Source: an uncultured Acidimicrobiales bacterium (GTDB lineage: Bacteria; Actinomycetota; Acidimicrobiia; Acidimicrobiales; Bin134). From it: a stretch of DNA of 64,000 nt. This document shows positions 40,440-63,504 of the stretch, one piece after another. Position 1 is the stretch's first letter. The number at the start of each line of letters is the position of its first letter. The stretch covers positions 124,001 to 188,000 of the forward strand of contig OX638350.1 of the NCBI GenBank assembly GCA_951813325.1, written 5' to 3'. The notes under the pieces were generated by a model, which saw nothing but the letters and a program-made list of their open reading frames with translations, did not search any database and was not told where the DNA came from. The position numbers were made by a program, and so were the translations under genes.

Positions 40440-41213
40440 TATTGAAATATATTTTAGTTGTATCTTGCAGTGCGCCGCGCTAGGGTTGTGCTATGGAGAC
40501 GGTGACGCTGGTGGATCTGGCTCCGATCTTGGGCATCATGCTCGGGTCGATGCTGGCGTTCTCCACCGCGATCATGCGCTACCAGCACGTTGACAGCACC
40601 AAAACACGTGATCTCGTGCACGGGCTGATCGAGAAGTCCAGCCGGGAGAACCGCGAGCTCATCGAGAAGTCCAGCCGGGAGAACCGCGAGCTCATCGAAA
40701 AGGTTCACTTGGAGCTGTCGGGTGGCTTGGACGAGGTGCGGGGCGGTCTGGGGGAACTGAGGGAGCGCCTGGCCCGCATCGAGGGCTATCTAGAGCGCTG
40801 GCCTAAGCCCCCGCCCTATGACGGTGCCGCCGAGGCGGCCTGAAAGTGGAGCAGGTTTAGCCGATGACGAACGGGTCGCGGGTGGCGCCGGTGAGCTCGA
40901 CCCAGACGGTTTTGGTCTGGAGGAAGCCGTCGAGGGCTTCGAGGCCGTTGTCTCGGCCGTAGCCCGACTGCTTGAAGCCGCCGAAGGGGGCCATGTAGCT
41001 CACGTTGCGGTAGGTGTTGATCCACACCGTGCCCACCCGGAGCGCTCTCGACACCCGGTGGGCGAGGCGGATGTCGTTGGTCCAGATGCCCGCAGCCAGC
41101 CCGTAGTCGCTGTCGTTGGCCAGCTTCACCACCTCGTCCTCGTCGTCGAAGACCAACATCGCCAGCACCGGGCCGAACACCTCCTCGCGGACGATGGTGG
41201 ACTGGTTGGTCAC
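40440..41213. repeat. Segmental duplication, copy 2
   Basis: Second copy of the leader, coiled-coil gene and aldehyde dehydrogenase 3' end. Here the aldehyde dehydrogenase gene continues to full length, so this is likely the parental arrangement. Confidence 0.9.
40493..40843 (+). CDS. Membrane-anchored hendecad coiled-coil protein, copy 2
   Basis: A 116-residue near-identical sister of the 39614 protein with two instead of four EKSSRENRELI units (33-bp repeats at 40631-40696). The membrane helix, C-terminal helix and tail are unchanged. It is convergent with the catabolic operon's last gene, with 13 bp between stops. The function is unknown. Confidence 0.7.
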   Translation: METVTLVDLAPILGIMLGSMLAFSTAIMRYQHVDSTKTRDLVHGLIEKSSRENRELIEKSSRENRELIEKVHLELSGGLDEVRGGLGELRERLARIEGYLERWPKPPPYDGAAEAA

Positions 41214-42320
41214 GCCGGTTATCACGGTGGGGCGCACGAACCGCCCACCGAGTTGAGGGTCGACCACACCGCCGGCGGCAACTGCCGCCCCCTCCGCACG
41301 GGCTTGGTCGATCATGGCCAGGATCCGGTCCCGTTGGGCGTCGGAGGCCGCCGGGCCCATCTCGGTGGCCGGGTCGGCGGGATCGCCCAGCACCAGTTCG
41401 TTGGCCCGTCCCACCACCCGGCCGACCACCTCATCGGCGATGTCTCGGTGGATGTAGGCCCTGGATCCGGCAATGCAGGTCTGGCCGCTGGCCGCGAAGA
41501 TCCCGGCTAAGAGCCCGTTGGTCACCGCCGCGAGGTCGGCGTCGGCGAAGATGATCTGGGGCGACTTGCCGCCCAACTCCAGCACGGTGGGAGTCAGGTT
41601 GTCGGCTGCGGCCCGGGCCACATGCTTGGCCGTGGCCCCGCCGCCGGTGAAGGTGATCTTGTCGATGCCCGGATGGGCGGTGATGGCCGCGCCCACCTCG
41701 GCCCCGCCGGTCACCACATTGATGACACCGGGCGGGAACCCGGCCTCGGCGGTCCGCTCGGCCAACATGAGCGCGGTGACCGGGGTGATGTCAGAGGGTT
41801 TGATCACCGCAGTACACCCGGCGGCCAGCAGGGGTGCCAGCTTCCAGGTCAGCAGGGCCAGCGGCGAGTTCCACGGGATGATGGCCCCCACCACTCCGAC
41901 CGGTTCGCGCTCGGTGTACACCAAGAAGTTGGGCGACGGGCTGGGAAGCTGCTCTCCGCCGATCTTGTCGGCCATCCCGGCGAAGAAGTCGTAGTAGCCC
42001 TGCAAGCCCTTGGCCTGAGCCGACGTCTCCCGGATGATCTTGCCGTTGTCCCGGGTCTCGACAATGGCCAGTTGCTCGGCGTCTCGGGACAGGAGTTCGC
42101 CCAGCCGACGCATCAGCCGGGCCCGCTCGGCGCCGGTCATCGCCGCCCACGGACCCTCGGTGAACGCTCGCCGAGCCGCCCGCACGGCATCGCCGACCGC
42201 GGCCGGGTCATCAGCCACTTCGGCCCAGGGCTCTCCGGTGTTCGGGTTGGTCGTGGCCATGCGCCGTCCGTTCGGTGGTGGGGCGAACCCCCCATCGATC
42301 CAGTTGTCGTAGGTCTCCAT
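40857..42320 (-). CDS. Aldehyde dehydrogenase, last gene of the Liv-P450 operon
   Basis: A 487-residue aldehyde dehydrogenase of the betaine-aldehyde/4-aminobutyraldehyde type. IPWNSPLALLTWK, LELGGKSPQI (general-base Glu) and ASGQTCIAGSR (catalytic Cys) are present. ATG 42320 overlaps the stop of the ferredoxin gene by one base (TGATG), so the two are coupled; a longer upstream start would run into the ferredoxin. In this operon it would oxidise the aldehyde made by the alcohol dehydrogenase or aminotransferase. Its 3' end is duplicated downstream. Confidence 0.9.
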   Translation of the reverse strand: METYDNWIDGGFAPPPNGRRMATTNPNTGEPWAEVADDPAAVGDAVRAARRAFTEGPWAAMTGAERARLMRRLGELLSRDAEQLAIVETRDNGKIIRETSAQAKGLQGYYDFFAGMADKIGGEQLPSPSPNFLVYTEREPVGVVGAIIPWNSPLALLTWKLAPLLAAGCTAVIKPSDITPVTALMLAERTAEAGFPPGVINVVTGGAEVGAAITAHPGIDKITFTGGGATAKHVARAAADNLTPTVLELGGKSPQIIFADADLAAVTNGLLAGIFAASGQTCIAGSRAYIHRDIADEVVGRVVGRANELVLGDPADPATEMGPAASDAQRDRILAMIDQARAEGAAVAAGGVVDPQLGGRFVRPTVITGVTNQSTIVREEVFGPVLAMLVFDDEDEVVKLANDSDYGLAAGIWTNDIRLAHRVSRALRVGTVWINTYRNVSYMAPFGGFKQSGYGRDNGLEALDGFLQTKTVWVELTGATRDPFVIG

Positions 42321-42535
42321 CAAATCTCCTCTTGCACTAGGGCGATAGCCCGGCCAGGGCACCGATCCGCTACTTCCTCGGCTCGTTCTCGGGGCAGAAG
42401 GCCGTCGCCGACCACTGAAGATATGACCACGTCATTGTCCAGCTCGAACATCTCGGGTTCGAGCATCTCGCATATCCCGCCACCGATGCACAGCTCTTGG
42501 TCGATCACTACTCGCATGAGTTCGCCGCCGGCCAT
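42320..42535 (-). CDS. 3Fe-4S ferredoxin, P450 electron donor
   Basis: A 71-residue ferredoxin with three cysteines: two in LCIGGGICEMLEPEMF (C16 and C22) and one in DRCPGRAIAL near residue 59. The missing fourth cysteine is the mark of the 3Fe-4S type found next to actinobacterial P450s. It should pass electrons to the P450 two genes upstream. No ferredoxin reductase is encoded nearby. ATG 42535 overlaps the aminotransferase stop (TGATG); ATG 42517 is an alternative. Confidence 0.9.
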   Translation of the reverse strand: MAGGELMRVVIDQELCIGGGICEMLEPEMFELDNDVVISSVVGDGLLPRERAEEVADRCPGRAIALVQEEI

Positions 42536-43818
42536 CAGCCCGCCTCCGCGAGTGCCTCGTCGAGGATTGCCATGCCCTCGTCGATGTCGGCTTGGGTGGC
42601 TACCAAAGGAACCAGCACTCGGATGCAGTTGGAGTACACCCCGGCGCCCATCAGGATCAGCCCGCGGTCGAACGCCTCGTCGATCACCCGGGCGGCCCGC
42701 ACGGGGTCAGGCTCTTTGCTGTCGGTGTCTTTGACCAGCTCGATGGCCAGCATGGCCCCCAACCCCCGGACCTCGCCGATGCTCCGGTGATCGGCAGCCA
42801 GTCCGTCGAGCCGGGACCGCAGTTGCTCGCCTAGGGCCTGGGATGCCTTTTGGAACTGGGGGTCGAGCACCTGGGAGATAGCTGCTTGGGCAGCTGCGCA
42901 CGACAGGGGATTGCCGCCGTAGGTCCCCCCGATGCCCCCGGCGTGCACCGAGTCCATGATCTCTGTCCGGCCCGTGACCCCAGAAATCGGCAGTCCGCCG
43001 CCCATCGCCTTGCCCCAGGTGCACAGATCGGGTTCGATGCCGTAGTGGGTGCACGCCGCGGGGAGCCCGGTTCGGCCCATGCCGGCCTGCACCTCGTCGG
43101 AGATGAGCAGAATCTTGTGCTCAGCGGCTATCTCGGCCACCCGGGCCGGATAGTCCTTGGGCATCGGGACGAAACCGCCCTCGCCTTGGACCGGCTCGAA
43201 GATGATGGCGGCCACGTTGTCCGGGTCGACCTGGTTCTTGAACAGGCGGAGGAGTCCGGCGATGGCGTCGTCGCTGGTGACGCCCCGGTACGGGTAGGGA
43301 CCCGGCGCCCGGTAGATCTCCGGGGCGAACGGGCCAAAGCCCAGCTTGTAGGGCCGCACCTTGGCGGTGAGCGACATGGTGAGCAGGGTCCGCCCGTGAA
43401 AGGCGTTGTCCAGGCAGATGATGCCCTGGCGACCGGTGTGGTAGCGGGCAATCTTCACCGCGTTCTCCACCGCCTCTGCTCCCGAGTTCAACAGCAGCCC
43501 CTTGGTGTCGAAATCGCTGGGATGGCACTGGCCCAGCAGTCGGCACACCTCTACGTATGGCTCATAGGACGACAGCGAGAAGCACTGGTGGAGGTAGGCG
43601 TCGAGCTGCTCCCGGATGGCGGCGACGATCTCCGGGTTTCCGTGGCCGTGGTTGGCCGTGCCGACACCGGCAACGAAGTCGATGAACTCCCGGCCGTCCA
43701 CATCCCAGATACGGGCACCCGATGCTCGGGCCACGAAGAACGGCCGACCCGCAGTTCCTGTAGCCACCCAGCGAGAGCGCTCGGCGGCCAATCGGTCGGT
43801 GTTGGGGGTCGAAGTCAT
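42535..43818 (-). CDS. Class III aminotransferase (GabT/omega type)
   Basis: A 427-residue PLP enzyme. HGNPEIVAAIREQLDAYLH, SGAEAVENAVKIARYHTGR, the cofactor aspartate in LLISDEVQAGMGRTG and the PLP lysine in CTWGKAMGGGLP all fit fold-type I class III. It transfers an amino group between an omega-amine or beta/gamma-amino acid and a keto acid. ATG 43818 overlaps the P450 stop (ATGA); a longer open frame upstream is inside the P450. In this operon it could release or remove the amine nitrogen. The substrate is not known. Confidence 0.9.
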   Translation of the reverse strand: MTSTPNTDRLAAERSRWVATGTAGRPFFVARASGARIWDVDGREFIDFVAGVGTANHGHGNPEIVAAIREQLDAYLHQCFSLSSYEPYVEVCRLLGQCHPSDFDTKGLLLNSGAEAVENAVKIARYHTGRQGIICLDNAFHGRTLLTMSLTAKVRPYKLGFGPFAPEIYRAPGPYPYRGVTSDDAIAGLLRLFKNQVDPDNVAAIIFEPVQGEGGFVPMPKDYPARVAEIAAEHKILLISDEVQAGMGRTGLPAACTHYGIEPDLCTWGKAMGGGLPISGVTGRTEIMDSVHAGGIGGTYGGNPLSCAAAQAAISQVLDPQFQKASQALGEQLRSRLDGLAADHRSIGEVRGLGAMLAIELVKDTDSKEPDPVRAARVIDEAFDRGLILMGAGVYSNCIRVLVPLVATQADIDEGMAILDEALAEAG

Positions 43819-45068
43819 GGAGACGTCCTTGGCTGCATGCCCACCGACAGCACGCCGTGGACGAAGTTGGAGCGGGCTCGCACCGGTTCGGAAGTCTGTT
43901 CCAGGCAGAGGGATCGCTTGGCCATCTCCTCCAGCAGCACCGTGAGCTCCAGCCGGGCCAAGAAGGCGCCGAGACACAAGTGAGGACCGCCGCCGCCGAA
44001 CGCGAAGTGGTCGCTGTTGGCCCGGCTCACGTCGAAGCGGAACGGATCTTCGAACACGGTCTCATCGCGGTTGGCCGAGGCGTACCACATGACCACCTTG
44101 TCGCCTTTGGCGATGCTGGTTCCCGCCAGCTCGGTATCGGTGGTGACCGTGCGCCTCATGTGCATAATCGGGGTGGCCCATCGCAGGATCTCCTCGGCGG
44201 CCGAGTTGATCATCGACCGGTCGTCAAGCACCCGCTGCCACTCACCCGGGCTGGCAGCCAGCGCCATTGCCCCGTGGCTGATAGCGGTGCGGGTGGTCTC
44301 GTTGCCCGCGAATACCAGCAGGTGGAACATGTTTCGGTATTCGCTTCTCGACATCTGCTCGTCTTCGGATTGGGCTTGGACCAGGTGGGAGACCAGATCG
44401 TCTTGAAGATCGTCCTGCCTGTGTTGACGCATGCCCTCGCCGTACTCGAACAGGGCGTGGCTGGCCGGGCTGTTGAATGGCAGAAGGCGCAGCTCGGTGG
44501 TGTTCCCAAAGGCATCGGGGGGAATGGACTGGGCATCGCCAGTGCCCTCGACCAGATAGTTGGACAGCTCTACCAGGTAGTCGGCGTCTTCGACCGGGAC
44601 GCCCAGCATGGTCAAGATCACCTGGATGGGCAGCGGCGCGGCCACCATGTCCACCCAGTCCCCCCCGCCCTGGCTGACGAACTCGTCGAGCAGATCGATG
44701 GTGATGGCCCGCACCGTCTCCTCCCACAGGCGGATGTTCTTGGGGGTGAAGGCGCCGGCCACCAGGCGCCGGAGCCGCGTGTGGTCGGGGGCGTCGGTGT
44801 CGATGAGCGACCGCCGGGCTTCCAACGCGTCGGCCTCAAGATCCCACAGGTTGGTGTGGCCGATGGCCGACGAGAACAACTCGGGGTTCCGGGACACGAA
44901 GCGCACATCGGCGTGGTGGGTGACAGCCCAGAACCCCCCATCCTCATAGGGATGCCAGGCCAGACCATCGATGGCCCGCAGTTGGGCGAAGCAGCCGTGG
45001 GGGATCCCCCGGAGATAAAGGCTGGGATCGGTGACGTTCGGCGTTTCCACAGTGGCGGCAGGCGTCAT
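43815..45068 (-). CDS. Cytochrome P450, first of two
   Basis: A 417-residue soluble bacterial P450. I-helix AGNETT (254-259) with the acid-alcohol pair, ExxR in AEEILR (293-296), HMRRTVTTD, and the heme loop FGGGGPHLCLGAFLAR with Cys365 as ligand. It resembles the CYP124/125/142-like group that hydroxylates terminal or unactivated carbons, judged only from motif style. It starts at ATG 45068, one base after the stop of the glutamine-synthetase-like gene. The co-transcribed 3Fe-4S ferredoxin is its likely redox partner. An alkyl or side-chain hydroxylation of the gamma-glutamylated or free amine would fit. Confidence 0.92.
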   Translation of the reverse strand: MTPAATVETPNVTDPSLYLRGIPHGCFAQLRAIDGLAWHPYEDGGFWAVTHHADVRFVSRNPELFSSAIGHTNLWDLEADALEARRSLIDTDAPDHTRLRRLVAGAFTPKNIRLWEETVRAITIDLLDEFVSQGGGDWVDMVAAPLPIQVILTMLGVPVEDADYLVELSNYLVEGTGDAQSIPPDAFGNTTELRLLPFNSPASHALFEYGEGMRQHRQDDLQDDLVSHLVQAQSEDEQMSRSEYRNMFHLLVFAGNETTRTAISHGAMALAASPGEWQRVLDDRSMINSAAEEILRWATPIMHMRRTVTTDTELAGTSIAKGDKVVMWYASANRDETVFEDPFRFDVSRANSDHFAFGGGGPHLCLGAFLARLELTVLLEEMAKRSLCLEQTSEPVRARSNFVHGVLSVGMQPRTSP

Positions 45069-45069
45069 G

Positions 45070-46413
45070 TCAACAGTGCTCCGCATACCGGGCCCGCTCC
45101 CAGTCGTTCACCTCATCGGGGTGGGGCGAGTTCTCCGGGGCCATGGCCAGCTCGTGGTCGGCCAGAGTCAGAAAGCCCTCCGAGAACACCTCGCCGAGCA
45201 CCGTGGCCAGCGGGCTGCCCCGATAGGCAGCGATCGCCCCGGCCAGATCGGCGGGCAGGGGCAGCGAGTTGCCGGGGTCGGCGTACATGTCGCCCTCGCT
45301 CATGGGCGGCAGGGGCAGCGCCCGCTCGATGCCGTCGAGGCCCGCTCCCAGGATGGCGGCGATCATCAGGTAGGGGTTGGCGTCGGCGCCCGCAGAGCGG
45401 AACTCCACCCGGTTGGCCTGCGAGCCGGGTTCGCAGATGCACCGGCACAGCACCGAGCGATTGTCCAGGCCCCAGTGCACGTGGGTGGGCACGAATGTGT
45501 ACGGGCGGATGCGCTTGGGACCGTTGATGGTGGGCGCGGCCAACAGGGTCATGGCCTCGGCGTGCTCCGATAGTCCAGCGATCCAGTGCCCCATCAGCTG
45601 GTTGGGCCTGCCGTTGGAGTCGGCGAAGGCGTTGGCCCCGCCCTCGGTCAGGCTGGTGTGGATGTGCATGCCCGATCCCGACGGCTCAGTCCACAGCTTG
45701 GGCATGAATGTGGCCCGCATCCCGTGCTGGACGGCCACCTGTTTGACGATGCTCTTGAGCAGCACGGTGTTGTCGGCGCAGGCCATGGCGTCGGCGTGGC
45801 CGATGTTGATCTCCATCTGCCCGGGGCCGTATTCGGGGTTGGACGACTCCACCTCGAGCCCGGCCGCCCCCAGGCCTTGGCGCATGTCCCGCACGCAGTC
45901 CTCCAACTCCAGCGCGTCGGTGAGCGAGGAGTATTGGATGTGGTTCTGCACCGGCGTCCAGTCGGGGGCGCAGAGGTAGAACTCCAACTCGGTGGCCACC
46001 ACCGGATCCAGCCCGGCCTGGCGGCACCGCTCAATCTGGTCGGCCAGCACGTTGCGGGGGGCGGCGGGGTGGGGCTCGCCGTGGGGGTCGAAGGTGTCGG
46101 CGAACACCAGCGCATAGCCCGGACGATGGGAGAAGATGCGGGCGGTGGAGACGTCGGGCATGAGGTGGCAGTCGAGGAAGCCCGTTTCCATGTTGATGTA
46201 GGGGTGGTCGGGCAGGTCGTTCTGCATGTCGAACGCGAAGATGGCGTCGGCGATGTTGAGGCCCCCGTCGACGGTCGTCGAAAAAAAGCGCTCTACCGGA
46301 ACCCGCTTGCCCCGCAGATGGCCCATGGTGTCGGGTGCGGTCACCTCGACGGTGTGGACGCCCGCCTGCTCACAAGCGGCGCGGAAGCGGTCGGCGCTGG
46401 GGGTTTCAGCCAT
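45070..46413 (-). CDS. Glutamine-synthetase-like ligase (PuuA-type), first of two
   Basis: A 447-residue GS-fold protein. Glu residues in VVATELEFYL and NPEYGPGQMEINIGHADA, the SGSGMHIHTSL block, NRSVLCRCI and RVEFRSAGADANPYLMIAA are the family's active-site blocks. It is shorter and more divergent than true glutamine synthetases and lies in a catabolic operon, so it most likely joins glutamate's gamma-carboxyl to an amine using ATP. ATG 46413 is supported by the start of homology (MAETPSADRFRAACEQAG); the region upstream in frame is not protein-like. It sits between the alcohol dehydrogenase and the P450. Confidence 0.85.
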   Translation of the reverse strand: MAETPSADRFRAACEQAGVHTVEVTAPDTMGHLRGKRVPVERFFSTTVDGGLNIADAIFAFDMQNDLPDHPYINMETGFLDCHLMPDVSTARIFSHRPGYALVFADTFDPHGEPHPAAPRNVLADQIERCRQAGLDPVVATELEFYLCAPDWTPVQNHIQYSSLTDALELEDCVRDMRQGLGAAGLEVESSNPEYGPGQMEINIGHADAMACADNTVLLKSIVKQVAVQHGMRATFMPKLWTEPSGSGMHIHTSLTEGGANAFADSNGRPNQLMGHWIAGLSEHAEAMTLLAAPTINGPKRIRPYTFVPTHVHWGLDNRSVLCRCICEPGSQANRVEFRSAGADANPYLMIAAILGAGLDGIERALPLPPMSEGDMYADPGNSLPLPADLAGAIAAYRGSPLATVLGEVFSEGFLTLADHELAMAPENSPHPDEVNDWERARYAEHC

Positions 46414-46436
46414 GATTCGAATACCTCGCTGACAGT

Positions 46437-47414
46437 TCAGTTGGCATGGGCCTGGTTGATCAGTAGCACTACGCGACCTTGCACGTCGCCGGCGCGCAGG
46501 CGGTCGTGGGCGAGCTGGGCCTCGGCGAGGGGGACTGTTTGCACCGGCGCAATGACGGACGGCTCCCGCCGGGCAAGGTCGAGGAGTTCGGTCAACTGGG
46601 CCCTGCTGCCCCAGATGCTGGACATGAAGCGGGCCTCGTGGGGAACGACTCCCAGGCCAAAGGGAATGCGGCCTCCGAACAGGCCCACCACCACTACCAG
46701 GCCCTGCCTGGCCACCACATCGGCCGCGACGGCCAGTGTGGCGTGGCGGCCGACGAAATCGACTACGACATCGCATGGCGGCAACTCGTCGTCGGCATCG
46801 AACACGCCATCGGCGCCCATGGCCACCGCCGCATTGCGCTTGTCTGCCGCCTGGTCGAGGGCGTACACATCGGCGTCGGTCAGCAGCTTGAGATAGCGCA
46901 GCGCAAACTGTCCGAGACCGCCGGCGCCGATGACCAGCGCCCGTCGCCGACCCGGGCGGCGCAGCGTATCCAGGCCGTGCTGCACGGCCCGGTAGGCGGT
47001 GAGGCCCCCACAGGCCAGTGGGGCACTGGCCACGGGATCGAGGCCGCCCAGCGGGAACAGGTACGCCCGATCAGCGATGCCCATGCGCTCGGCGTAGCCC
47101 CCGTCGACCACAAGCCCGGCTTCCGTGGCATCGGCACAGATCATCTCGTTGCCGTTGGCGCACTGCTGGCATCGGCCGCACCCCCAGGGCGCGTACACCA
47201 TCACCGGCCCTAGCTCGGGATGCGTCCCGGTGACCTCATGGCCCAGCACAATGGGCAGGGGACTCGGATAGTCGCCCTCCACCACGTGGAGGTCTGAGTG
47301 GCATACGCCGCAGGCGGTGACCTCGATGACCTCGCCGCCGTTTGCATCGGGCTCGGAGTAGTCGTCCACCACAACTAGGGGCGAGTTGCGAGCCTCCAAG
47401 ACAACCGCGAGCAT
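46437..47414 (-). CDS. Zinc-dependent alcohol dehydrogenase (MDR family)
   Basis: A 325-residue medium-chain dehydrogenase. Catalytic zinc ligands lie in ACGVCHSDLHV and LGHEVTG, the four structural-zinc cysteines in WGCGRCQQCANGNEMIC, and the cofactor loop GAGGLGQFALRYLK is near residue 165. It oxidises an alcohol to an aldehyde with NAD(P). Its start lies 1 bp after the acyl-CoA dehydrogenase stop. It would act on the product of the P450, ahead of the aldehyde dehydrogenase of the same operon. Confidence 0.9.
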   Translation of the reverse strand: MLAVVLEARNSPLVVVDDYSEPDANGGEVIEVTACGVCHSDLHVVEGDYPSPLPIVLGHEVTGTHPELGPVMVYAPWGCGRCQQCANGNEMICADATEAGLVVDGGYAERMGIADRAYLFPLGGLDPVASAPLACGGLTAYRAVQHGLDTLRRPGRRRALVIGAGGLGQFALRYLKLLTDADVYALDQAADKRNAAVAMGADGVFDADDELPPCDVVVDFVGRHATLAVAADVVARQGLVVVVGLFGGRIPFGLGVVPHEARFMSSIWGSRAQLTELLDLARREPSVIAPVQTVPLAEAQLAHDRLRAGDVQGRVVLLINQAHAN

Positions 47415-56498: not shown

Positions 56499-56743
56499 AC
56501 GCCCACACTAGATCTCACCGCAATGAGCGTCGTAGACACTCGCAATTCGCTCGATGAATTCGTCCCAGCGAAGCCCACATCCGGTGGGCGTAAGATCCTG
56601 AGATATTGCCCCGGTCTCGCGATCGGAAGTCACGACTGACCGGACCCCGTTTGTTGGTCCGGGTGATGTGTGCTCTGTTCTTTGGTCCCGGTTTGTGGGA
56701 GTCAGGCGGCGTGTGGTCGTTGTATTTCTTGAGCGTCCAATAC
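56499..56743. other. Gene-free region with element debris
   Basis: No reliable gene is seen. A minus-strand frame ends in RWDEFIERIASVYDAHCGEI and could be the tail of a lost gene. Around 56641-56662 an inverted repeat GGACC...GGTCC is visible. The right part (GTGTGGTCGTTG and on) has no counterpart in the complete MITE-like element and may belong to the parent insertion sequence. Confidence 0.35.
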
Positions 56744-56795
56744 GGCGTCGATGCCTAGCAGGACACGCGCGAATAAACCCACGACACACCACTAG
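56744..56795. mobile_element. Right end of the MITE-like element
   Basis: These 52 bp match the right end of the complete element at 19590-19757, including the terminal ACCCACGACACACCACTAG. The left part is replaced by unrelated sequence, so this is either a longer relative or a deleted copy. It sits between the acyl-CoA-dehydrogenase-like gene and site B. Confidence 0.85.
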
Positions 56796-56843
56796 CGTCT
56801 GCCGGACTGCCGACCTCTAACCGGGGGCACGCACGCCGGTTGA

Positions 56844-56863
56844 ATCGTTTGGTACCAAACAAT
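56844..56863. promoter_or_regulatory. Regulon palindrome, site B
   Basis: ATCGTTTGGTACCAAACAAT, with a perfect 14-bp core GTTTGGTACCAAAC. A likely -10 box TATACT follows at 56864-56869 and the GTG start at 56876, so the transcript is probably leaderless and the site overlaps the promoter spacer. It matches site A at 17 of 20 positions. Confidence 0.8.
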
Positions 56864-56875
56864 TATACTGCCGGC

Positions 56876-57691
56876 GTGGCCGACCTGAAGGGGTTCATGT
56901 ATCCCCGCTCTCCCACCGGTGCCGCCGGCATCCTGCCGGGCCCGCCGTGGCACTACTCGGGCGACATGTTGACGGTGGAGTTCCGCACTGATCCGGCCAA
57001 GGTGGCCGAGCTTCTCCCTGAGCCACTGGAGCTGGTCGATGACGACCCCGGTGCCGTCGCCCTCATCTGGGCGGACTGGCAGAGTTGCAGCGACAGTTTC
57101 GAGGAGATTCTCGACCCGGCCCGGGCCCAGTACAAAGAGGTGTTCTTGGTGGTGCGCTGTGCTTACAAGGGCCAGATCTTCAGCCGAGCGGCCTATATCT
57201 GGGTGGACAAGGACTTCGCCATGGCCCGGGGCCACATCCAGGGCTATCCCAAGAAGATGAGCGAGATCTGGATGACCCGGCCGGTGGCCTACGGCAAGGC
57301 CGGCCCTCGGCTCGAGCCGGGCGGACAGTTCGGCGCCACCCTCAGCACGTGGGGGCGGCGGATTGCCGAGGCCAACTTCACCATCCGGGGCACTGCCGAG
57401 TCGCCCGGATTCGTCAACAGCCATCCCATGCTTCACAGCCGCCAGATGCCGGCCATCGAGATGGACGGGCGCGACTCGCTGGACGAGCTGGTGACCATGC
57501 GGGGATACGACGCTGACCTCGGCCCGGCGTTCAGCGGCGACGCCGATCTGGTGCTGCCCGAGAATCCCACCGAAGAGCTCACCCGGCTGGAGCCCTTCGA
57601 GGTCATCGGCGGCTACTACCGGCAGGTGGGCAACTCCATGGCCGGGGGCACCACGCTGTGGGCCGCCCCCAATCCGATGGAATCCGACTGA
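56876..57691 (+). CDS. Acetoacetate decarboxylase family protein
   Basis: A 271-residue ADC-fold protein. YPRSPTGAAGILPGPPWHYSG at the N-terminus, EVFLVVRCAYKGQIFSRAAY near residue 88, and GHIQGYPKKMSEIWMTRP carrying the lysine pair used for Schiff-base formation in the family. Members decarboxylate beta-keto acids, or act as hydratases or aldolases in divergent branches. GTG 56876 is chosen; it sits 7 bp after a -10 box, giving a leaderless mRNA. The stop overlaps the start of the P450 gene (TGATG). First gene of a four-gene plus-strand operon. Confidence 0.8.
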   Translation: MADLKGFMYPRSPTGAAGILPGPPWHYSGDMLTVEFRTDPAKVAELLPEPLELVDDDPGAVALIWADWQSCSDSFEEILDPARAQYKEVFLVVRCAYKGQIFSRAAYIWVDKDFAMARGHIQGYPKKMSEIWMTRPVAYGKAGPRLEPGGQFGATLSTWGRRIAEANFTIRGTAESPGFVNSHPMLHSRQMPAIEMDGRDSLDELVTMRGYDADLGPAFSGDADLVLPENPTEELTRLEPFEVIGGYYRQVGNSMAGGTTLWAAPNPMESD

Positions 57692-58962
57692 TGGGCGCCC
57701 AGGCCTACGTCGATGACTACCTGGCTGATCTCGGCCCTGATGACGCCGACATCACCGACCACGACACTTACGTGGCCGGCGTCCCCCACGCCACGTTCAC
57801 CCGGCTGCGCGCCGAAGACCCAGTCCATTGGACTGAGGAGGCCGACGGATCCGGGTTCTGGTCGATCCTGCGCTACGACGACTGTCTGGCTGTGAGCCGT
57901 GACGTCGAGACGTTCACATCGTCGCTGGGCATCCGGCTGGAGGAGATGGACGCCGAGCAGACCGAAGCCCGCAGGACCATGATGGAGATGGACCCGCCCG
58001 AGCACACCCGACTGCGGCGATTGGTGAATACGGGCTTCACCCGCCGGACGGTCGAGACTTTTGAGGGCTCCATCAGAGAGCTGGTGGGAGAAGTGCTCGA
58101 CACTGCGCTGGCTCGCGACGAGTTTGACTTCGTCCACGACATCGCCGAGGAACTCCCCATGCGGATGCTGGGCCGCCTGCTGGGCACCGACGACGAACAC
58201 GGTCGGAAGCTGGTGGCCTGGGGCGACGCGCTGCTCGGCAACACCGATCCCGATTTCACCGACTACCCGGTAGACCTCACCGACACCGAGCGGTTCCGGA
58301 TGATCCCGTTCCGCAGTCCCGCGGCCATCGAGATCTTCCAATACGCCCAAGAGCAGGCCGCCGACCGGCGGGGCTGCCCCCGAGACGACATCATCACCAA
58401 GCTGTTGGCCCCCACCATCGACGGCGACCCGCTCACCGACTTGGAGTTCAACAACTTCTTCACCCTGTTGGTGGCGGCGGGCAACGACACCACCCGCTAC
58501 ACCATGACCCACGGCATGTGGACCCTACTGAACCACCCCCACCTGTGGGAGTCGTGGAAGGCCGACCCGGGCTTGACCGACACCGCGGTGGAGGAGATCC
58601 TGCGAACCGGGTCGGTCACCATGCACTTCCGTCGCACCGCTACCCGCGACGTCGAGATGCGGGGGTCGAAGATCCGGGCTGGCGACAAAGTGGTGATCTG
58701 GTTTGTGGCCGCCAACCACGACCCCGAGGGGTTCGAACGGCCGTTCCGCTTCGACCTGGGTCGCGAGCAAAACGACCACATGGCGTTCGGCCGCAACGGG
58801 CCGCATCTGTGCCTGGGGGCCTGGCTGGCCCGCATGGAGGTGCGGCTGGTGTTCGAAGAGCTGATGAAGCGGGTGAACCGCTTGGAGCCCGCTGGCCCCA
58901 TCAACCGGCTGCGCTCCAACTTCATCTCGGGGATCAAACGGCTGCCGGTTCGGGTGGCGTGA
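57691..58962 (+). CDS. Cytochrome P450, second of two
   Basis: A 423-residue P450. I-helix AGNDTT (263-268), ExxR in VEEILR (302-305), HFRRTATRDVEM, and the heme loop FGRNGPHLCLGAWLAR with Cys374. It is of the same general type as the 43.8-kb P450 but clearly divergent, so the two probably have different positions of attack. It is translationally coupled to the decarboxylase-like gene. No ferredoxin is encoded in this half of the region, so it may share the one at 42.3 kb. Confidence 0.92.
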   Translation: MGAQAYVDDYLADLGPDDADITDHDTYVAGVPHATFTRLRAEDPVHWTEEADGSGFWSILRYDDCLAVSRDVETFTSSLGIRLEEMDAEQTEARRTMMEMDPPEHTRLRRLVNTGFTRRTVETFEGSIRELVGEVLDTALARDEFDFVHDIAEELPMRMLGRLLGTDDEHGRKLVAWGDALLGNTDPDFTDYPVDLTDTERFRMIPFRSPAAIEIFQYAQEQAADRRGCPRDDIITKLLAPTIDGDPLTDLEFNNFFTLLVAAGNDTTRYTMTHGMWTLLNHPHLWESWKADPGLTDTAVEEILRTGSVTMHFRRTATRDVEMRGSKIRAGDKVVIWFVAANHDPEGFERPFRFDLGREQNDHMAFGRNGPHLCLGAWLARMEVRLVFEELMKRVNRLEPAGPINRLRSNFISGIKRLPVRVA

Positions 58963-59014
58963 TGGAAGTTCCCATTGCTGGAATCCGGCTTCTCCTGACC
59001 CGAGGGGCAATGTG

Positions 59015-59875
59015 ATGGGGGCCATCGTCGGGGCTGGGTTGATCTCCCACGTGCCTCCACTAGTGATGCCCGAGGCGGTTCGCCGGGAGCTCAACGACGG
59101 CGAGGACACCACGTTGTTCCAAGGACTTCACGACCTCGGCGCCCAGCGGCAGCGATCGTTGGCTGCCGACACCGTGGTGGTGGTGGACACCCACTGGTTC
59201 ACCACCGTCGAGCACATCGTCACCTCCCACGACCGCCGCTGCGGACTTTTCACTTCCGAAGAGCTGCCCCGGGGTATGTGCCAGATGCCTTATGACATGC
59301 CCGGCGACCGAGAGTTGGCCGAGGCGTGGGCCGGCCGGGCCGCAGGGCGAGACGACACCTGGATCACCGCTATCGACGATCCCCATCTCCCGGTGCACTA
59401 TCCCACCATCAACCTGCTTCCGTTCCTCCAGGGCGACGAGGCATGGGTTTCGGCCAGTATCTGCCAGACGGCCGAGCCCCACGACTTTTTGCTGTTCGGC
59501 GAGCTGTTGGCCCAGGCGGTGGCGGGCCTCAACCGCCGGGTAGTGGTGTTGGCCAGCGGCGGGCTGAGCCACCGCTTCTGGCCGCTGCGGCAGTTCCGCA
59601 ACCACGAGGCGGCCGATCCGGCTCTCCATCTGCGCACCCCCGAAGCCAAGGCCGCCGACGAGCACGTCATTGACTGCCTCAAGCGGGGTGATCATGCCGG
59701 CGTGCTCGACTTCTTGCCCGAGTTCTCCGCCCATGCGCCTGAGGGGTTCTTCGGCCACTACCTGACCATGGTCGGAGCGCTGGGCGGAGCGGCCTGCACC
59801 GCTCCCGGCGAGCAGTTCGGAGACTATGAATCGGTCGCGGGGACGGGCCAAGTCCATCTATGGTTCAACCCGTGA
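59015..59875 (+). CDS. Class III extradiol dioxygenase (HpaD/LigB type)
   Basis: A 286-residue protein of the LigB superfamily. GLISHVPPL (first His), VVVDTHWFTT (second His), LFTSEELPRGMCQMPYDMPG, VLASGGLSHRFWP and AGTGQVHLWFNP follow the order seen in the class III homoprotocatechuate 2,3-dioxygenases. It should open a catechol-type ring with Fe(II) and O2. ATG 59015 is preferred, 7 bp after GAGGGG; a GTG lies 3 bp earlier. It comes 52 bp after the P450 gene and overlaps the next gene by 16 bp. Confidence 0.8.
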   Translation: MGAIVGAGLISHVPPLVMPEAVRRELNDGEDTTLFQGLHDLGAQRQRSLAADTVVVVDTHWFTTVEHIVTSHDRRCGLFTSEELPRGMCQMPYDMPGDRELAEAWAGRAAGRDDTWITAIDDPHLPVHYPTINLLPFLQGDEAWVSASICQTAEPHDFLLFGELLAQAVAGLNRRVVVLASGGLSHRFWPLRQFRNHEAADPALHLRTPEAKAADEHVIDCLKRGDHAGVLDFLPEFSAHAPEGFFGHYLTMVGALGGAACTAPGEQFGDYESVAGTGQVHLWFNP

Positions 59876-60579
59876 AGCGCGCCCTGGCCATCGCCCACGA
59901 GTTGGACGGTCTACCCGGCCAGATTGCCACCCGCTTGCGCCAGCGGGATTACGAGGTCCACATCCACGTGGTGACCCACGACTACGACCACCCCAACGTC
60001 GCTGTACCCTTCCCCTCGATGGACGACTACGACCTGCTGTTGCCGATGGGGTCGGTTCGCTCGCTCACCGACAAAGACGAGATCGACTCCTGGATCTACG
60101 AGGAGCTCGACATGATCAAACAGGCCCACGAGGAGGGCAAGCCCGTGTTGGGGATCTGCTTCGGCGGCCAGCTGATCTCCGAGGCGCTTGAGGGAGTGGT
60201 CGAGGTGTCTCCAGTGACCGAAATCGGCTGGTTCGAGCTTGACGACGGTGAGGACGGCCCCAACCCGGCCGGGCCGGGACCGTGGATGCAGTGGCACCAC
60301 GACCGATTCACCCCGCCACCCGGGTCTGAAGTACTGGCCCGCAACGACAGCTCGGTGCAGCTCATCAAGATCGGCCGCACAGTGGGGACCCAGTTCCACC
60401 CTGAGGTCGACGTGGCCCACGTCGAGTCATTCCTCAGGTTGGCTCCAAAGGACTACTTGGACGATTGCGGGGTGGACTTCGAACTGCTCATGGAGCAGAC
60501 CCGCCAGCACGAGATGGCCAACATCAAGCAGTGCCACGCCTTTGTCGACTGGTACCTGGACGAGGTGCTCGCCGAGTAA
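59860..60579 (+). CDS. Class I glutamine amidotransferase-like hydrolase
   Basis: A 239-residue GATase1 domain: the nucleophile in VLGICFGGQLI (Cys near residue 102) and the His/Glu pair in QFHPEVDVAHV. As a stand-alone domain next to a GS-like ligase, it resembles the GATase partners found beside the GS-like genes of aniline degradation clusters, where the pair makes gamma-glutamylanilide or removes the glutamyl group. It overlaps the dioxygenase gene by 16 bp and is convergent with the second GS-like gene, 9 bp between stops. Confidence 0.85.
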   Translation: MVQPVKRALAIAHELDGLPGQIATRLRQRDYEVHIHVVTHDYDHPNVAVPFPSMDDYDLLLPMGSVRSLTDKDEIDSWIYEELDMIKQAHEEGKPVLGICFGGQLISEALEGVVEVSPVTEIGWFELDDGEDGPNPAGPGPWMQWHHDRFTPPPGSEVLARNDSSVQLIKIGRTVGTQFHPEVDVAHVESFLRLAPKDYLDDCGVDFELLMEQTRQHEMANIKQCHAFVDWYLDEVLAE

Positions 60580-60588: not shown

Positions 60589-61902
60589 TCAGTGGTACAT
60601 GAGGTATTCGTCGAGTTCCCACTGGGTCACTTCGCCCCCGGGCACGTCTTCACCCACTGCGGCGATGTAGCGCTCCCACTCGGCCTGCTTGTTGGCGATG
60701 AAGTTCTGGCACAAGTCGTCGCCCACCGCGGCCATCAGCGCGGGATCGGCCACCAGGTGCTCCAGCGCCACAGCCAGGCTGGGCGCCGCGCCCACATCGG
60801 TATTGACCTCTTCGAACCCGTCGGTGGTCAGTGGGTCGGGGCACTCCAACTCATCGACCACCCCGAGCCGGGCGGCTTGGAGAATGGTGGCCACCCCGAG
60901 GTGGATGTTGACCGCGCCGTCACCCACCCGGTTTTCGATCCGGGTGGCGATCCCTCTTGCCTCGGGTATCCGATTGGCCGCGCAGCGGTGGTCGTGGCCC
61001 CAGTTGGCCCAGTAGCCGTTGAGCTCTGCCGGCTGGAGCCGCCGGTAGGCGTTCACCGTGGGGGCGCACAGCGCGGTGAGAGCCTGGTGGTGAGCCACCA
61101 GGCCGGCTAGGCATCCCTTGGCCAGGGCTGAGAGGCCGTCGTCGGCCGAGGTGTCGTTGAAGGCGTTGTGGCCCTCAGCGTCGACCAGCGAGAAGTTCAC
61201 GTGTACGCCGCTGCCGGCCACCCCGACAAACGGCTTGCCCAGAAACGTCAGGTCCAGGCCGTGGCTCAGGGCCACCTCCCGGGCCAGCACCCGGAATAGG
61301 AACGCCTCGTCGGCCGCTTTGAGGGCGTCGTCGTACTCCAGCGTGAGCTCGAACTGCGACTCGTCGTACTCGGCGTTGATGCTCTCCAGCGGGAACCCGC
61401 ATCTCCAAGCGGTGCGGGTGATGTCGTCGAGCAGTCCGGTCGGATCGGCTGAGCGCCCGGTTCCGTAGACGAACGACCGGGGAGTGTCCCAGCGCTCCCA
61501 GCCGCCCTCGCCGTCAGGCTGGAGCACATAGGCCTCTAGCTCGATGCCCACCTTGGGCGCATAACCGAGGTCAGCCCACGCGGCAATGGCCCGCTGGAGG
61601 GCGTAGCGGGCCGAGACGGTGTAGGGCTGCCCCTTGAAGTCGAGATGGCCCACCACCACACCGGTGGCGTCGTCCTCCCAGCTTGTGCGGACCTCGTGGG
61701 GGTCGAAGCTGGCCATGACGTCGGGAAGCCCTTCCAGCAGATAGGTGCCGGGGGCGGGGATGAGGCTGCGGTCGTAACCGAGGGCGAAGGTGGTGATGCA
61801 GTGGCCGGTGCCGTGTTCGGCCAGGTGGACAGGCAGGTACTTGCCCCGGGCCAGGCCGAGATGATCGGGCCAGAGGACCCGGATCCGGTCGTAGTCGCTC
61901 AT
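60589..61902 (-). CDS. Glutamine-synthetase-like ligase, second of two
   Basis: A 437-residue GS-fold protein distinct from the 45.1-kb one. LRxGKYLP-type N-terminus (GLARGKYLPVHLAEHG), VGIELEAYVL, NAEYDESQFELTLEYDDAL, AGSGVHVNFSLV and TRIENRVGDGAVNIHLGVAT are the active-site blocks. The expected reaction is ATP-dependent gamma-glutamylation of an amine. It is the second gene of a minus-strand unit, 39 bp after the alpha/beta hydrolase, under site C. Neighbouring GATase and PuuD-like hydrolases could later remove the glutamyl group. Confidence 0.85.
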   Translation of the reverse strand: MSDYDRIRVLWPDHLGLARGKYLPVHLAEHGTGHCITTFALGYDRSLIPAPGTYLLEGLPDVMASFDPHEVRTSWEDDATGVVVGHLDFKGQPYTVSARYALQRAIAAWADLGYAPKVGIELEAYVLQPDGEGGWERWDTPRSFVYGTGRSADPTGLLDDITRTAWRCGFPLESINAEYDESQFELTLEYDDALKAADEAFLFRVLAREVALSHGLDLTFLGKPFVGVAGSGVHVNFSLVDAEGHNAFNDTSADDGLSALAKGCLAGLVAHHQALTALCAPTVNAYRRLQPAELNGYWANWGHDHRCAANRIPEARGIATRIENRVGDGAVNIHLGVATILQAARLGVVDELECPDPLTTDGFEEVNTDVGAAPSLAVALEHLVADPALMAAVGDDLCQNFIANKQAEWERYIAAVGEDVPGGEVTQWELDEYLMYH

Positions 61903-61941: not shown

Positions 61942-62745
61942 TCATGGCTGAGCCGCCGGAAGCGATCCCAAAAACTCGCCAACGAGTCGGTTGAAGAATG
62001 CAGGGGCTTCGGCCGGGCTGAGGTGGCCTGCTCCGGGGATCACCTCTAGCTGGCTGTTTTGGATACCCGTGTGGAGCTCGGCGGCATAGGACAGCGGCGT
62101 CTCCTCGTCGAGCTCGCCGACCACTACCAGCGTGGGCGCGCTGATCTCTCCGAGCCGGTGGCGTACGTCATGGGTTGGAAGCAGTTGGCAGGCGGCTCGG
62201 AAACCTGACTCGGGTATGCGGGCAAACGCCGCGATGGCCTGATCCCGGTCAAGCCCCTCAAATCCGGGAGCGGTGATCCCGTCGATGACGTCGGTGGCGA
62301 TATCGGCCAGCGGCACTCCGTCGTCGATGGGCGCGGTGCGCAATCGGCGCCATTCCTCGGGATCGGTCCCATCGCCGCCGAAAGCGGCGCTGGTGTCGGC
62401 TAGTACCAGCGATCGCACTCGGGGCGGATGGCGTAGCGCGGTGTGCAGCGCATGGTGTCCACCGAACGACAAACCGCACAGGTGGGCAGATTCCACCCCC
62501 AGCCGATCCAACAGCCCGGCCACCGCATCGGCGATGGCCTCGAAGGTGAGCGGGCTTATGGGCGACGACTCACCGTAGCCGGGCATGTCCCATGCTACGC
62601 ACTGCCACTGGTCGCAAAAAGCCTCGATCTGGGGCTCCCACGCCGTTCGCGACCCGCCCAAGCCGTGGAGAAACAGCACAACATCGCCATCACCTGCCTC
62701 GCGCCAGGAAATTGTGCGGTCGACGTCTCGAATCTGTGGTCCCAA
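61942..62745 (-). CDS. Alpha/beta hydrolase (ring-cleavage product or enol-lactone type)
   Basis: A 267-residue hydrolase. The oxyanion segment is LFLHGLGGSRTAW, the nucleophile elbow GLSFGGHHAL (Ser near residue 94), the acid GELDEETP near 208 and the His PGAGHLSPAEAP near 238. The build is that of 3-oxoadipate enol-lactonase or meta-cleavage hydrolases, and NicD-type deformylases belong to the same fold. The start is TTG 62745; no better start is seen. It is divergent from the PuuD-like gene across site C and cotranscribed with the GS-like gene. Confidence 0.8.
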   Translation of the reverse strand: MGPQIRDVDRTISWREAGDGDVVLFLHGLGGSRTAWEPQIEAFCDQWQCVAWDMPGYGESSPISPLTFEAIADAVAGLLDRLGVESAHLCGLSFGGHHALHTALRHPPRVRSLVLADTSAAFGGDGTDPEEWRRLRTAPIDDGVPLADIATDVIDGITAPGFEGLDRDQAIAAFARIPESGFRAACQLLPTHDVRHRLGEISAPTLVVVGELDEETPLSYAAELHTGIQNSQLEVIPGAGHLSPAEAPAFFNRLVGEFLGSLPAAQP

Positions 62746-62773: not shown

Positions 62774-62793
62774 AGCGTTTGGAAGCGAACAAT
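62774..62793. promoter_or_regulatory. Regulon palindrome, site C
   Basis: AGCGTTTGGAAGCGAACAAT, a weaker version of sites A and B with the same spacing of half-sites (CGTTTGG and CRAAC). It lies in the 51-bp gap between the divergent alpha/beta hydrolase and PuuD-like genes. A further half-site-like inverted pair CGAAC/GTTCG occurs at 62748-62766. Confidence 0.7.
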
Positions 62794-62796
62794 TTC

Positions 62797-63504
62797 TTGG
62801 CCACGAAACCCCCATTGATCGGACTACCAGGTCGGCGCAAGCGCGCCTCGGAAGTGCGCGGTTTTCCCGACATCCTGGACGATTGCGACCTCGATCTGTA
62901 CTTTGCCGACTATGCCCGCGGCGTCATGGAGGCCGGCGGCACCCCGGTACACATCCCCATAGATGCCGATCCCGCCGCCGTTGGCGATCGGCTCGACGGC
63001 ATCGTCCTCCCCGGGGGAACCGACATCGACCCGATCCGCTATGAGGCCGACCCCGACCCCGAGCTGCTGGATCCCGAGCCCGAGCGCGACGATCTCGAAC
63101 TGGGGCTGCTTTCGGCCGCTCTCGACGCCGAACTCACCGTCCTCGGCATCTGCCGGGGGATCCAGCTGCTCAATGTGCTTCAGGGGGGCACCCTGCACCA
63201 GCACATCCCGGAACACAGCCGCTTCGACCTTCCCATCGATACCACCATCCACCAGGTGAGCTTTGCCGAGGGCTCCACCTTGCATGGGCTCTACGGCTCA
63301 TCAGCCCGGGTGAACAGCCTCCACCATCAAACAGTGGCCGATTTGGGCCGGGATCTCACCGTCACTGCCCGGGCCGACGACGGCACCATCGAAGGCCTGG
63401 AGATGGGAGATCACGTGGTCGCCGTCCAATGGCACCCCGAGATGATGCCTACCCGCGACACCGATCCCATCTTCGGTTGGCTCGTGCACCGGGCATCCCG
63501 CTAG
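62797..63504 (+). CDS. PuuD-like gamma-glutamyl hydrolase (peptidase C26)
   Basis: A 235-residue class I GATase-fold hydrolase. IVLPGGTDIDPIRY, the nucleophile in VLGICRGIQLLNV, GGTLHQHIP, VNSLHHQ and the His/Glu of VAVQWHPEM are the blocks of gamma-glutamyl-GABA hydrolase (PuuD). It should release glutamate from gamma-glutamylated intermediates made by the GS-like ligases. TTG 62797 (MATKPPLIGLPGRR) is chosen because an earlier TTG at 62779 would start inside site C. The leader is then only 3 bp from the palindrome, so a leaderless transcript is likely. Confidence 0.85.
   Translation: MATKPPLIGLPGRRKRASEVRGFPDILDDCDLDLYFADYARGVMEAGGTPVHIPIDADPAAVGDRLDGIVLPGGTDIDPIRYEADPDPELLDPEPERDDLELGLLSAALDAELTVLGICRGIQLLNVLQGGTLHQHIPEHSRFDLPIDTTIHQVSFAEGSTLHGLYGSSARVNSLHHQTVADLGRDLTVTARADDGTIEGLEMGDHVVAVQWHPEMMPTRDTDPIFGWLVHRASR

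Follow-up and report, generated by a model that had tools for sequence, protein, structure and literature searches.

A candidate catabolic supercluster for arylethylamines with glutamine synthetase-like ligases and cytochromes P450 in an uncultured Acidimicrobiales bacterium

The window analyzed here is a DNA stretch of 64,000 nucleotides from an uncultured Acidimicrobiales bacterium (contig OX638350.1 of assembly GCA_951813325.1, positions 124,001–188,000 of the forward strand). The genome is present as one 3.59 Mb contig and is 95.9% complete. Positions 36532–63504 of the window carry two glutamine synthetase (GS)-like ligases, termed GS1 and GS2, two cytochromes P450, termed P450a and P450b, and genes resembling those of the homoprotocatechuate (Hpa) meta-pathway and of the putrescine (Puu) pathway. 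This region appears to be a catabolic supercluster for arylethylamines, with tyramine as the most likely substrate; a probability of about 0.5 is given to this reading. All functional assignments in the cluster come from sequence.

Three properties lead to tyramine or a close arylethylamine: a ligase of the amine type, the presence of tyrosine-type decarboxylases in some related units, and a ring opening of the homoprotocatechuate type. A new route for amines derived from aromatic amino acids, present in at least four phyla, is proposed with slightly less confidence than the supercluster reading. The amine would remain capped with glutamate through hydroxylation and extradiol ring opening, and the route would end in gamma-glutamyl-4-aminobutyraldehyde, which would join the Puu/4-aminobutyrate (GABA) pathway. 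The cap would block closure between amine and aldehyde, and an MppR-like protein would replace HpaH and HpaI. Gamma-glutamyl-protected amine catabolism is a kind of pathway already known; here it would be joined to a homoprotocatechuate-type meta-pathway.

An earlier reading of the window (the original prediction) described a gamma-glutamylation locus at positions 40857–63504. All the parts it listed are present: two GS-like ligases, two P450s, a 3Fe-4S ferredoxin, a class I glutamine amidotransferase (GATase), a PuuD-like hydrolase, an aminotransferase, an alcohol dehydrogenase (ADH), an aldehyde dehydrogenase (ALDH) and an importer. The ring-cleaving enzymes that it mentioned are a LigB-family protein (59012–59875) and a NicX homologue (54228–55283), and an aromatic amine, the type of substrate it suggested, fits the data. 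Its borders, however, are too tight. A block of HpaE, HpaG and MarR genes (36532–39423) upstream of 40857 belongs to the same system, because a relative (G126) has all of these genes in a single cluster (loci L066 and L067).

GS1 (45070–46440, minus strand) and GS2 (60589–61902, minus strand) were compared in one alignment with E. coli GlnA and both GS of the window genome (two further GS genes, near 3.37 Mb), as well as with three amine ligases: PuuA, the protein annotated as IpuC on plasmid pTC1, and a DcaQ-type enzyme encoded by pTB30. Residue numbers are those of E. coli GlnA without the Met. Both ligases keep E129, E131, E212, E220, H269, R321, R339, R344, E357 and R359. The D50 position is a gap in both, and the E327 position is occupied by F in GS1 and by L in GS2. 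We take D50 and E327 to be the ammonium-site acids of GS, and the roles of the catalytic residues are likewise assumed from the GS literature. Both GlnA proteins of the window genome retain D50 and E327. The known amine ligases are without D50, and at the E327 position PuuA has Y, IpuC has W and DcaQ has L. Thus, with the ammonium-site acids missing and the catalytic residues kept, GS1 and GS2 look like amine ligases and not glutamine synthetases, and formation of gamma-glutamylamides is predicted.

A tree of 107 ligase rows was built by a quick method, with the long branches of PuuA, DcaQ and IpuC being uncertain. GS2 falls in a clade of 90 rows (SH-aLRT support 100) that consists of 83 labelled GS2 rows and seven unlabelled paralogues; PuuA, IpuC and DcaQ are outside of it. 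The labelled rows come from Acidimicrobiia, Nitriliruptoraceae, Kineosporia, Chloroflexota, Deinococcota and Alphaproteobacteria. GS1 forms a clade of six rows (support 100) inside a weak group (87) that includes the annotated pTC1 IpuC and distant GS1-like genes. GlnA, PuuA and DcaQ fall outside both groups. The tree was examined for a firm placement of both ligases with true GS or with a characterized pathway, and it displays neither. That GS1 and GS2 are true GS is ruled out by the missing D50 and E327 and by the tree position.

Within the GS2 clade the paralogues L024, L029, L030 and L032 form one branch, and pathway neighbours are missing at these loci; the GS2 clade as a whole is therefore not bound to the pathway. 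Loci L093, L094 and L202–L206, of the same genus, carry a GS2 paralogue of 51%–53% identity whose surroundings, over up to 20 kb, contain no P450b, LigB, HpaE, HpaG or MppR-like gene. These loci lie near LivF-like ATPase genes, and L203 also has a P450a-like match.

Scanning of genome contigs with GS2 yielded 480 relatives; the analysis covered the best 80. Neighbours were counted up to 10 kb on each side of GS2 (many contigs are shorter) at an identity of at least 40% unless stated otherwise. The controls were 25 loci of other GS-family genes in the relatives, i.e. GlnA, GS1-like genes and GS2 paralogues. P450b is found near GS2 in 52 of the 80 loci, a LigB or VOC dioxygenase in 32, the MppR-like gene in 32, the GATase in 31, HpaE in 21, MarR in 20 and HpaG in 19. 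Each of these was found at 0/25 control loci. At looser identity the GATase appears at 1/25 controls (33%), and one control locus (L199) has a P450b match (30%). These counts show linkage, not independent events. The grouping is more than chance, with the same neighbours recurring in other families and phyla.

The unit on a Novosphingobium plasmid displays the following identities to the window proteins: GS2 49%, LigB 51%, P450b 45%, HpaE 65%, MppR-like 60% and HpaG 73%. Also encoded there are a MarR regulator, a second ALDH and a 2Fe-2S protein. Novosphingobium sp. EMRT-2, a cultivated bacterium, carries the unit in compact form. GS2 orthologues accompanied by unit genes are present in Nitriliruptoraceae (L158) and in other Acidimicrobiia families as well. 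All six Chloroflexota/Deinococcota loci carry GS2, P450b, HpaG, the MppR-like gene and a VOC-type HpaD, and four of the six have HpaE. In three of these loci that were tested, the VOC-type HpaD scores 101–118 bits to TIGR02295 (cut-off 321). GS2, P450b, LigB, HpaE, HpaG and the MppR-like protein form one cross-phylum unit, which points to an arylethylamine such as tyramine.

A pyridoxal phosphate (PLP)-dependent amino-acid decarboxylase is present in five of the six Chloroflexota/Deinococcota loci (not in L164). Tyrosine-decarboxylase-like genes are found in L155 (302 bits to TIGR03811) and in L171, a Thermoflexales locus (282 bits; cut-off 905), and the gene in L150 is 78%–79% identical to that of L155. 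An amino-acid permease is near the unit in five of the six loci; one of these permeases shares just 25% identity with its L155 counterpart. A PLP decarboxylase also sits between LigB and GS2 in the Acidimicrobiia unit L066. PLP decarboxylases recur in units of Deinococcota, Nitriliruptoraceae and Acidimicrobiia. The association of PLP decarboxylases with GS2 is by itself not significant; its weight lies in the tyrosine-type genes of Chloroflexota and in the recurrence elsewhere.

Two further gene types were observed in these loci. L164, L166 and L171 have a beta-lactamase-fold serine hydrolase (PF00144 in L171), and no PuuD was matched there; the units with PuuD and GATase (L150, L155) are without this hydrolase. 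These are possibly two solutions for removal of the cap, by non-orthologous replacement. An F420/flavin-type luciferase-like oxidoreductase is near GS2 in 10/80 loci, including L128 (11373–12326), L150 (6151–7086; 171 bits to TIGR03619), L160, L164 and L168, and has no match in the window.

The relationship between the ligase–P450 pair and the usual ring hydroxylase of the Hpa pathway is seen by comparison of 148 related genomes. LigB and the MppR-like gene occur in an identical set of 20 of them. Of the 23 genomes with a match to GS2, 20 have it at an identity of at least 54% (G125 as two fragments), and 18 of these 20 also have LigB; this count leaves out the 51%–53% paralogues, and hence G014 and G113, as well as G136 (39%). 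The Fisher tests on these co-occurrences ignore relatedness. G080, which has LigB, displays in a row MarR, HpaB (335 bits to TIGR02309, cut-off 480), HpaE-like, LigB, MppR-like and HpaG-like genes, and no ligase or P450 was found in the 13.4 kb around this unit. GS2 and P450b therefore replace HpaB elsewhere: the ligase and the P450 occupy in other genomes the place that HpaB has in G080.

A search with PF03241 gave no HpaB match in the window genome; the control search was positive in 4/14 genomes. The possibility that HpaB is hidden elsewhere in the window genome was considered and dropped, as no match was found. HpaB is also absent from nine more of the 20 LigB genomes. Ten have a match, including a weak fragment (G038), and among these ten, most of which are drafts in many contigs, HpaB is on the LigB contig in G080 only. 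For HpaF, no PF02962 match was obtained in the window genome, and the same search matched no control genome either.

These data bear on an alternative in which the cap is lost before ring opening. Here a P450 would hydroxylate the carbon beside the amide nitrogen, so that glutamine is set free together with an arylacetaldehyde, whose oxidation would lead to a (homo)protocatechuate-type acid and the ordinary 4-hydroxyphenylacetate meta-pathway. The homology of the lower genes to homoprotocatechuate enzymes, the two P450s and second ALDH of the window, and the pairing of related lower genes with HpaB in G080 would all be expected from such a route. It would demand, however, that in the units where a single P450 was seen (Novosphingobium, Chloroflexota, Deinococcota) this one enzyme carries out both hydroxylation and deamination, or that these start from dopamine, and the window genome is without HpaB. 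In addition, all six VOC dioxygenases have Trp at the position of Arg243. This Arg is presumably the carboxylate-binding residue of homoprotocatechuate dioxygenase, both its role and the alignment register being assumed. Loss of the cap at this early stage is considered unlikely.

In the capped route, which is preferred, GS2 would couple the gamma-carboxyl of glutamate to the amine with consumption of ATP. P450b (57658–58962, plus strand) is the predicted ring hydroxylase and would convert gamma-glutamyl-tyramine to the catechol gamma-glutamyl-dopamine. The best PDB matches of both P450s are the steroid or lipid hydroxylases CYP125/CYP124; a sterol-type substrate was considered but not favoured, the other genes of the unit being of the homoprotocatechuate type. 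The LigB-family extradiol dioxygenase (59012–59875, plus strand; PF02900) is HpaD_Fe-like (124 bits to TIGR02298, cut-off 316; 77 bits to 8iq8, a 3,4-dihydroxyphenylacetate 2,3-dioxygenase). It would carry out the meta-cleavage of the ring, the cap perhaps being still in place. The HpaE-like aldehyde dehydrogenase (36532–37995, minus strand; best family TIGR02299, 498 bits, cut-off 638) is predicted to oxidize the ring-fission semialdehyde. The HpaG-like protein of the fumarylacetoacetase family (37992–38912, minus strand; 193 bits to TIGR02303, cut-off 276) would then bring about isomerization and decarboxylation.

The next step would belong to the MppR-like protein (56840–57691, plus strand), which is also acetoacetate-decarboxylase-like (MppR 184 bits, 4zbo 168 bits; TIGR04460 215 bits, cut-off 380). 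MppR is an aldolase. The window protein is a predicted hydratase/retro-aldolase whose products would be pyruvate and gamma-glutamyl-4-aminobutyraldehyde. The usual end products of the Hpa route are pyruvate and succinic semialdehyde. An MppR-like aldolase has been independently proposed for the same step in phenol meta-cleavage by Saccharolobus (PMC7820114).

In E. coli, gamma-glutamyl-aminobutyraldehyde is the substrate of PuuC, as given in the puuC annotation, and PuuC-, PuuD- and PuuE-like genes are all present in the window. The ALDH (40857–42362, minus strand; start codon uncertain, probably near 42317) has 40% identity to E. coli PuuC and scores 462–502 bits to BADH/aminobutyraldehyde dehydrogenase families, below their cut-offs; it would oxidize this Puu intermediate to gamma-glutamyl-GABA. 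The PuuD-like gamma-glutamyl hydrolase (62779–63504, plus strand; Peptidase_C26, PF07722 184 bits, PRK11366 87 bits with a cut-off of 266) shows a Cys-His-Glu triad and 35% identity to E. coli PuuD. It would release GABA and glutamate. A class III aminotransferase (42535–43824, minus strand) would then direct GABA toward succinate; its best families are 4-aminobutyrate transaminases (TIGR00700 474 bits, cut-off 507), and it has 44% identity to PuuE.

By masking the free amine, the glutamate cap would prevent it from cyclizing with the aldehyde formed on ring fission. The class I GATase (59860–60579, plus strand), which has a Cys-His-Glu triad, may stop the capped amine from accumulating, as in the aniline case. 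It is a distant relative of DcaT, of the chloroaniline plasmid type; with the GATase that neighbours DcaQ it shares 33% identity over a stretch of 142 aa. The role of a class I GATase against build-up of the capped amine in the aniline route is treated in a review (PMC4539516).

The cluster shares with the Hpa meta-pathway a MarR regulator, an HpaD-type dioxygenase and HpaE- and HpaG-like proteins in one neighbourhood. It differs in having a GS-like ligase and a P450 where HpaB would stand, and an MppR-like protein where the known route uses HpaH/HpaI. No HpaH/HpaI was seen among the annotated cluster proteins, the genome not having been searched for them. With the Puu pathway (PuuA-PuuC-PuuD-PuuE) it has in common a gamma-glutamyl ligase, an ALDH, a PuuD-family hydrolase and a GABA-transaminase-like enzyme, and the capped aldehyde predicted here is also an intermediate of that pathway. 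Here, however, the aldehyde would derive from an aromatic ring and not from putrescine, and the ligases are outside the PuuA lineage. A PuuB-type oxidase is not among the annotated cluster proteins and was not sought in the genome.

In the aniline systems (Tdn/Atd/Dca), a GS-like ligase and a class I GATase also feed a catechol meta-cleavage. One could suppose that GS2 acts on an aniline-type amine, as do TdnQ/AtdA1, with P450b replacing the Rieske dioxygenase. Both combine, in a similar way, a ligase with a class I GATase and meta-cleavage; the aniline case is described in the same review (PMC4539516). GS2, however, lies outside the DcaQ lineage and far from DcaQ in the tree (DcaQ being a long branch). 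The tyrosine-decarboxylase-like genes and the HpaD/HpaE/HpaG homologues point to a two-carbon side chain, i.e. to a side-chain amine. An aniline-type substrate is the least probable of the alternatives considered.

Several points weigh against the arylethylamine reading and the capped route. All of the activities proposed are predictions. LigB, HpaE, HpaG and the MppR-like protein all score below the cut-offs of their families (124/316, 498/638, 193/276 and 215/380 bits). GS1/P450a, an acyl-CoA dehydrogenase family protein (ACAD1), the ADH, the NicX-like protein, a second acyl-CoA dehydrogenase-fold protein (ACAD2) and the alpha/beta hydrolase are left unexplained by the route. The GS2 clade includes the paralogues of 51%–53% identity without pathway neighbours. 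Some genomes have GS2 without LigB or the MppR-like gene (G079, G119), and others have LigB and the MppR-like gene without a GS2 match (G080, and G090, which is 80% complete). PuuD was dropped as a marker of the capped route, as it is also near control ligases (32/80 vs 5/25 at 40%; 36/80 vs 10/25 at 33%).

No decarboxylase was seen in the window cluster, and the two PLP decarboxylases of the genome are both far away. PLP decarboxylases are near 12/80 GS2 loci vs 0/25 controls at 33% identity (p 0.065) and near 6/80 at 40% (p 0.33), and these p-values overstate independence, since many of the 80 loci are closely related; many contigs are also cut short. The specificity of most of these decarboxylases is not settled by the matches: the best match of the L066 enzyme (185 bits) and of a second L155 decarboxylase (157 bits) is L-2,4-diaminobutyrate decarboxylase (cut-off 900). 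The Chloroflexota and Deinococcota loci are contigs of metagenome-assembled genomes, with taxon labels taken as given.

P450a (43815–45086, minus strand; CYP125/CYP124-type by PDB search) and GS1 possibly form a second ligase–P450 module, acting at an earlier hydroxylation or oxidation state or on a different amine. A second copy of P450a is found in several relatives. In a collection of plasmids, none of the GS1 matches listed exceeds 38% identity. Plasmid pTC1 of Paenarthrobacter aurescens, as annotated, has the order GATase-P450-ferredoxin-ferredoxin reductase-'ipuC', and its ligase is resembled by GS1 only (GS1 35%, GS2 30%). In Gulosibacter, the GS genes GMOLON4_438 and _3052 adjoin, by locus tag, the P450s bioI (_437) and pipA (_3051), of the piperidine/morpholine type (PMC9477822). 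These mor/pip and pTC1 clusters share with the window a GS-like gene beside a P450 and a ferredoxin (with or without reductase). The pTC1 cluster differs in that no ring-cleavage or Hpa genes are among the genes shown around its ligase.

These precedents qualify the claim that no described pathway has this gene set. In searches of open-licence papers, no description was found of the whole set, nor of glutamyl-tyramine or glutamyl-dopamine catabolism; the combination of a P450, a ferredoxin and a GS-like ligase has been described before. The "double-ligase set" of the original prediction is better viewed as two or three modules that have come together in Acidimicrobiia.

It is a serious though tentative possibility, the strongest of the alternatives, that these modules are independent pathways side by side: an aliphatic-amine pathway of the Ipu/morpholine type, an aromatic one and one of a hydroxypyridine type. 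The genes would divide into GS1, P450a, ferredoxin, aminotransferase, ALDH, ADH and importer; GS2, P450b, LigB and the Hpa genes; and NicX-like, ACAD2 and hydrolase. The grouping of the GS1 clade with pTC1 IpuC and distant GS1-like genes, although weak, is in accordance with this, and among three PuuD-type proteins compared, the window PuuD-like protein is closest to the GATase beside ipuC on pTC1 (39%). The GS2 loci from outside the actinobacteria showed no GS1, and most GS2 copies with a NicX-like gene but without LigB make up their own subclade. Co-occurrence speaks against full independence. GS1 is present at an identity of at least 53% in 21 of the 35 genomes matched, and both ligases are together in 18 of the 148 genomes, as compared with three that have GS1 only (G021, G045, G090) and two that have GS2 only (G076, G117). 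Furthermore, in Microthrixaceae and others the genes of GS1 and GS2 lie side by side in divergent orientation, together with P450a-P450b-GATase.

The NicX-like protein (54228–55283, minus strand) resembles 2,5-dihydroxypyridine 5,6-dioxygenase (192 bits to 7cn3); neither Pfam nor NCBIfam gave a match. H265, H318 and D320, which we assume to be the iron ligands of NicX, are conserved when the protein is aligned to 7cn3. Its genomic partners differ from those of NicX. In the window they are ACAD2 (55287–56498, minus strand), which is possibly a flavin oxygenase (best PDB matches 5z8t/5gj7, both type 2 domain proteins, followed by acyl-CoA dehydrogenases and DnmZ/nitrososynthase), a PcaD-like alpha/beta hydrolase (61942–62745, minus strand), and GS2. 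The four form a recurrent quartet in Acidimicrobiia and Kineosporia, which may represent a parallel pathway for a hydroxypyridine-like ring. In the tree, the GS2 copies of L117, L118, L122 and L124–L126 are placed outside the subclade that holds most GS2 copies with a NicX-like gene but no LigB.

With this recurrence and the conserved positions, one may ask whether a pyridine-type amine is the main substrate, the NicX-like dioxygenase and the alpha/beta hydrolase (NicX/NicD-like) doing the main ring opening. This is judged improbable, only a little less so than an aniline-type substrate. The LigB/VOC unit is present, in part or in full, on the deep GS2 branches (Chloroflexota, Deinococcota, Nitriliruptoraceae, Novosphingobium), whose loci gave no match to a NicX-like gene.

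Two observations concern the quartet. In relative G007, a second module lies between the main cluster and its MarR-HpaG-HpaE block (L087:13927–18286 to L088:2794); it consists of an HpaG-like protein (36%), a P450b-like protein (43%), a hydrolase, ACAD2, a NicX-like protein and a second GS2 (58%). A regulator that by eye resembles the PaaX family is beside the quartet at L126:6060–6863 and L133:5425–6231.

If the arylethylamine pathway is real, it would give a function to a large clade of "glutamine synthetase family" proteins in environmental bacteria, substrates to two unassigned P450 types and a catabolic role to MppR-like aldolases. Protecting-group logic would be carried through aromatic ring cleavage. 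A few purified proteins would suffice for a direct test of the predicted pathway. Candidatus Poriferisocius, a near relative that carries the unit, has a GS2 of 88% identity. It is presumably of sponge origin, as judged from its name, and aromatic amines and their brominated alkaloids are common in sponges; for these reasons the pathway may bear on host–symbiont chemistry.

The genes from the ALDH (40857) to the importer substrate-binding protein (54110) are all on the minus strand; between neighbours there are overlaps or gaps, from a few bases up to about fifty. The order is ALDH, ferredoxin, aminotransferase, P450a, GS1, ADH, ACAD1, GntR, LivMG, LivH, LivF and substrate-binding protein. The ferredoxin (42320–42535; 71 aa, Fer4_15/Fer4_13) is called 3Fe-4S type because it has three Cys. 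An open reading frame at 56508–56792 was considered as a possible ferredoxin and dropped, as it has no NCBIfam match, so that the cluster ferredoxin is that at 42320–42535. GS1 is followed by the zinc ADH family protein (46437–47414), ACAD1 (47416–48582) and a GntR/FCD regulator (48583–49275).

The importer genes are a fused LivM-LivG subunit (49272–51167), the LivH permease (51164–52051) and the LivF ATPase (52048–52758), the latter two conserved in relatives, and the substrate-binding protein (52809–54110). The LivM-LivG start is approximate, the frame being open to 51680; the L087 orthologue is a single 632-codon frame. The substrate-binding protein is named from position and sequence, without an NCBIfam match, and is beside Liv genes in relatives. 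The NicX-like gene and ACAD2 continue on the minus strand. The MppR-like gene, P450b, LigB and GATase are closely packed on the plus strand; GS2 and the alpha/beta hydrolase have the opposite orientation, and the PuuD-like gene closes the set. The MarR-family regulator (38866–39423, plus strand; PF01047) is divergent from HpaG, in an HpaR-like position, and stays beside HpaG in other families and phyla.

A scan with Rfam at gathering thresholds detected one tRNA in the window and nothing else. Positions 39536–40924 contain a partial tandem duplication, with copies of 288 and 300 bases that are 95%–99% identical and spaced by 879 and 813 bases. This stretch carries a C-terminal ALDH gene fragment (40044–40400, minus strand) and a small open reading frame with a short repeated motif in two versions (39614–40030 and 40493–40843). 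At 33556–36380 there are D-2-hydroxyacid dehydrogenase-like, short-chain dehydrogenase/reductase and thioesterase-like genes, named by eye; these adjoin HpaE also in G007, with 88%–89% identity.

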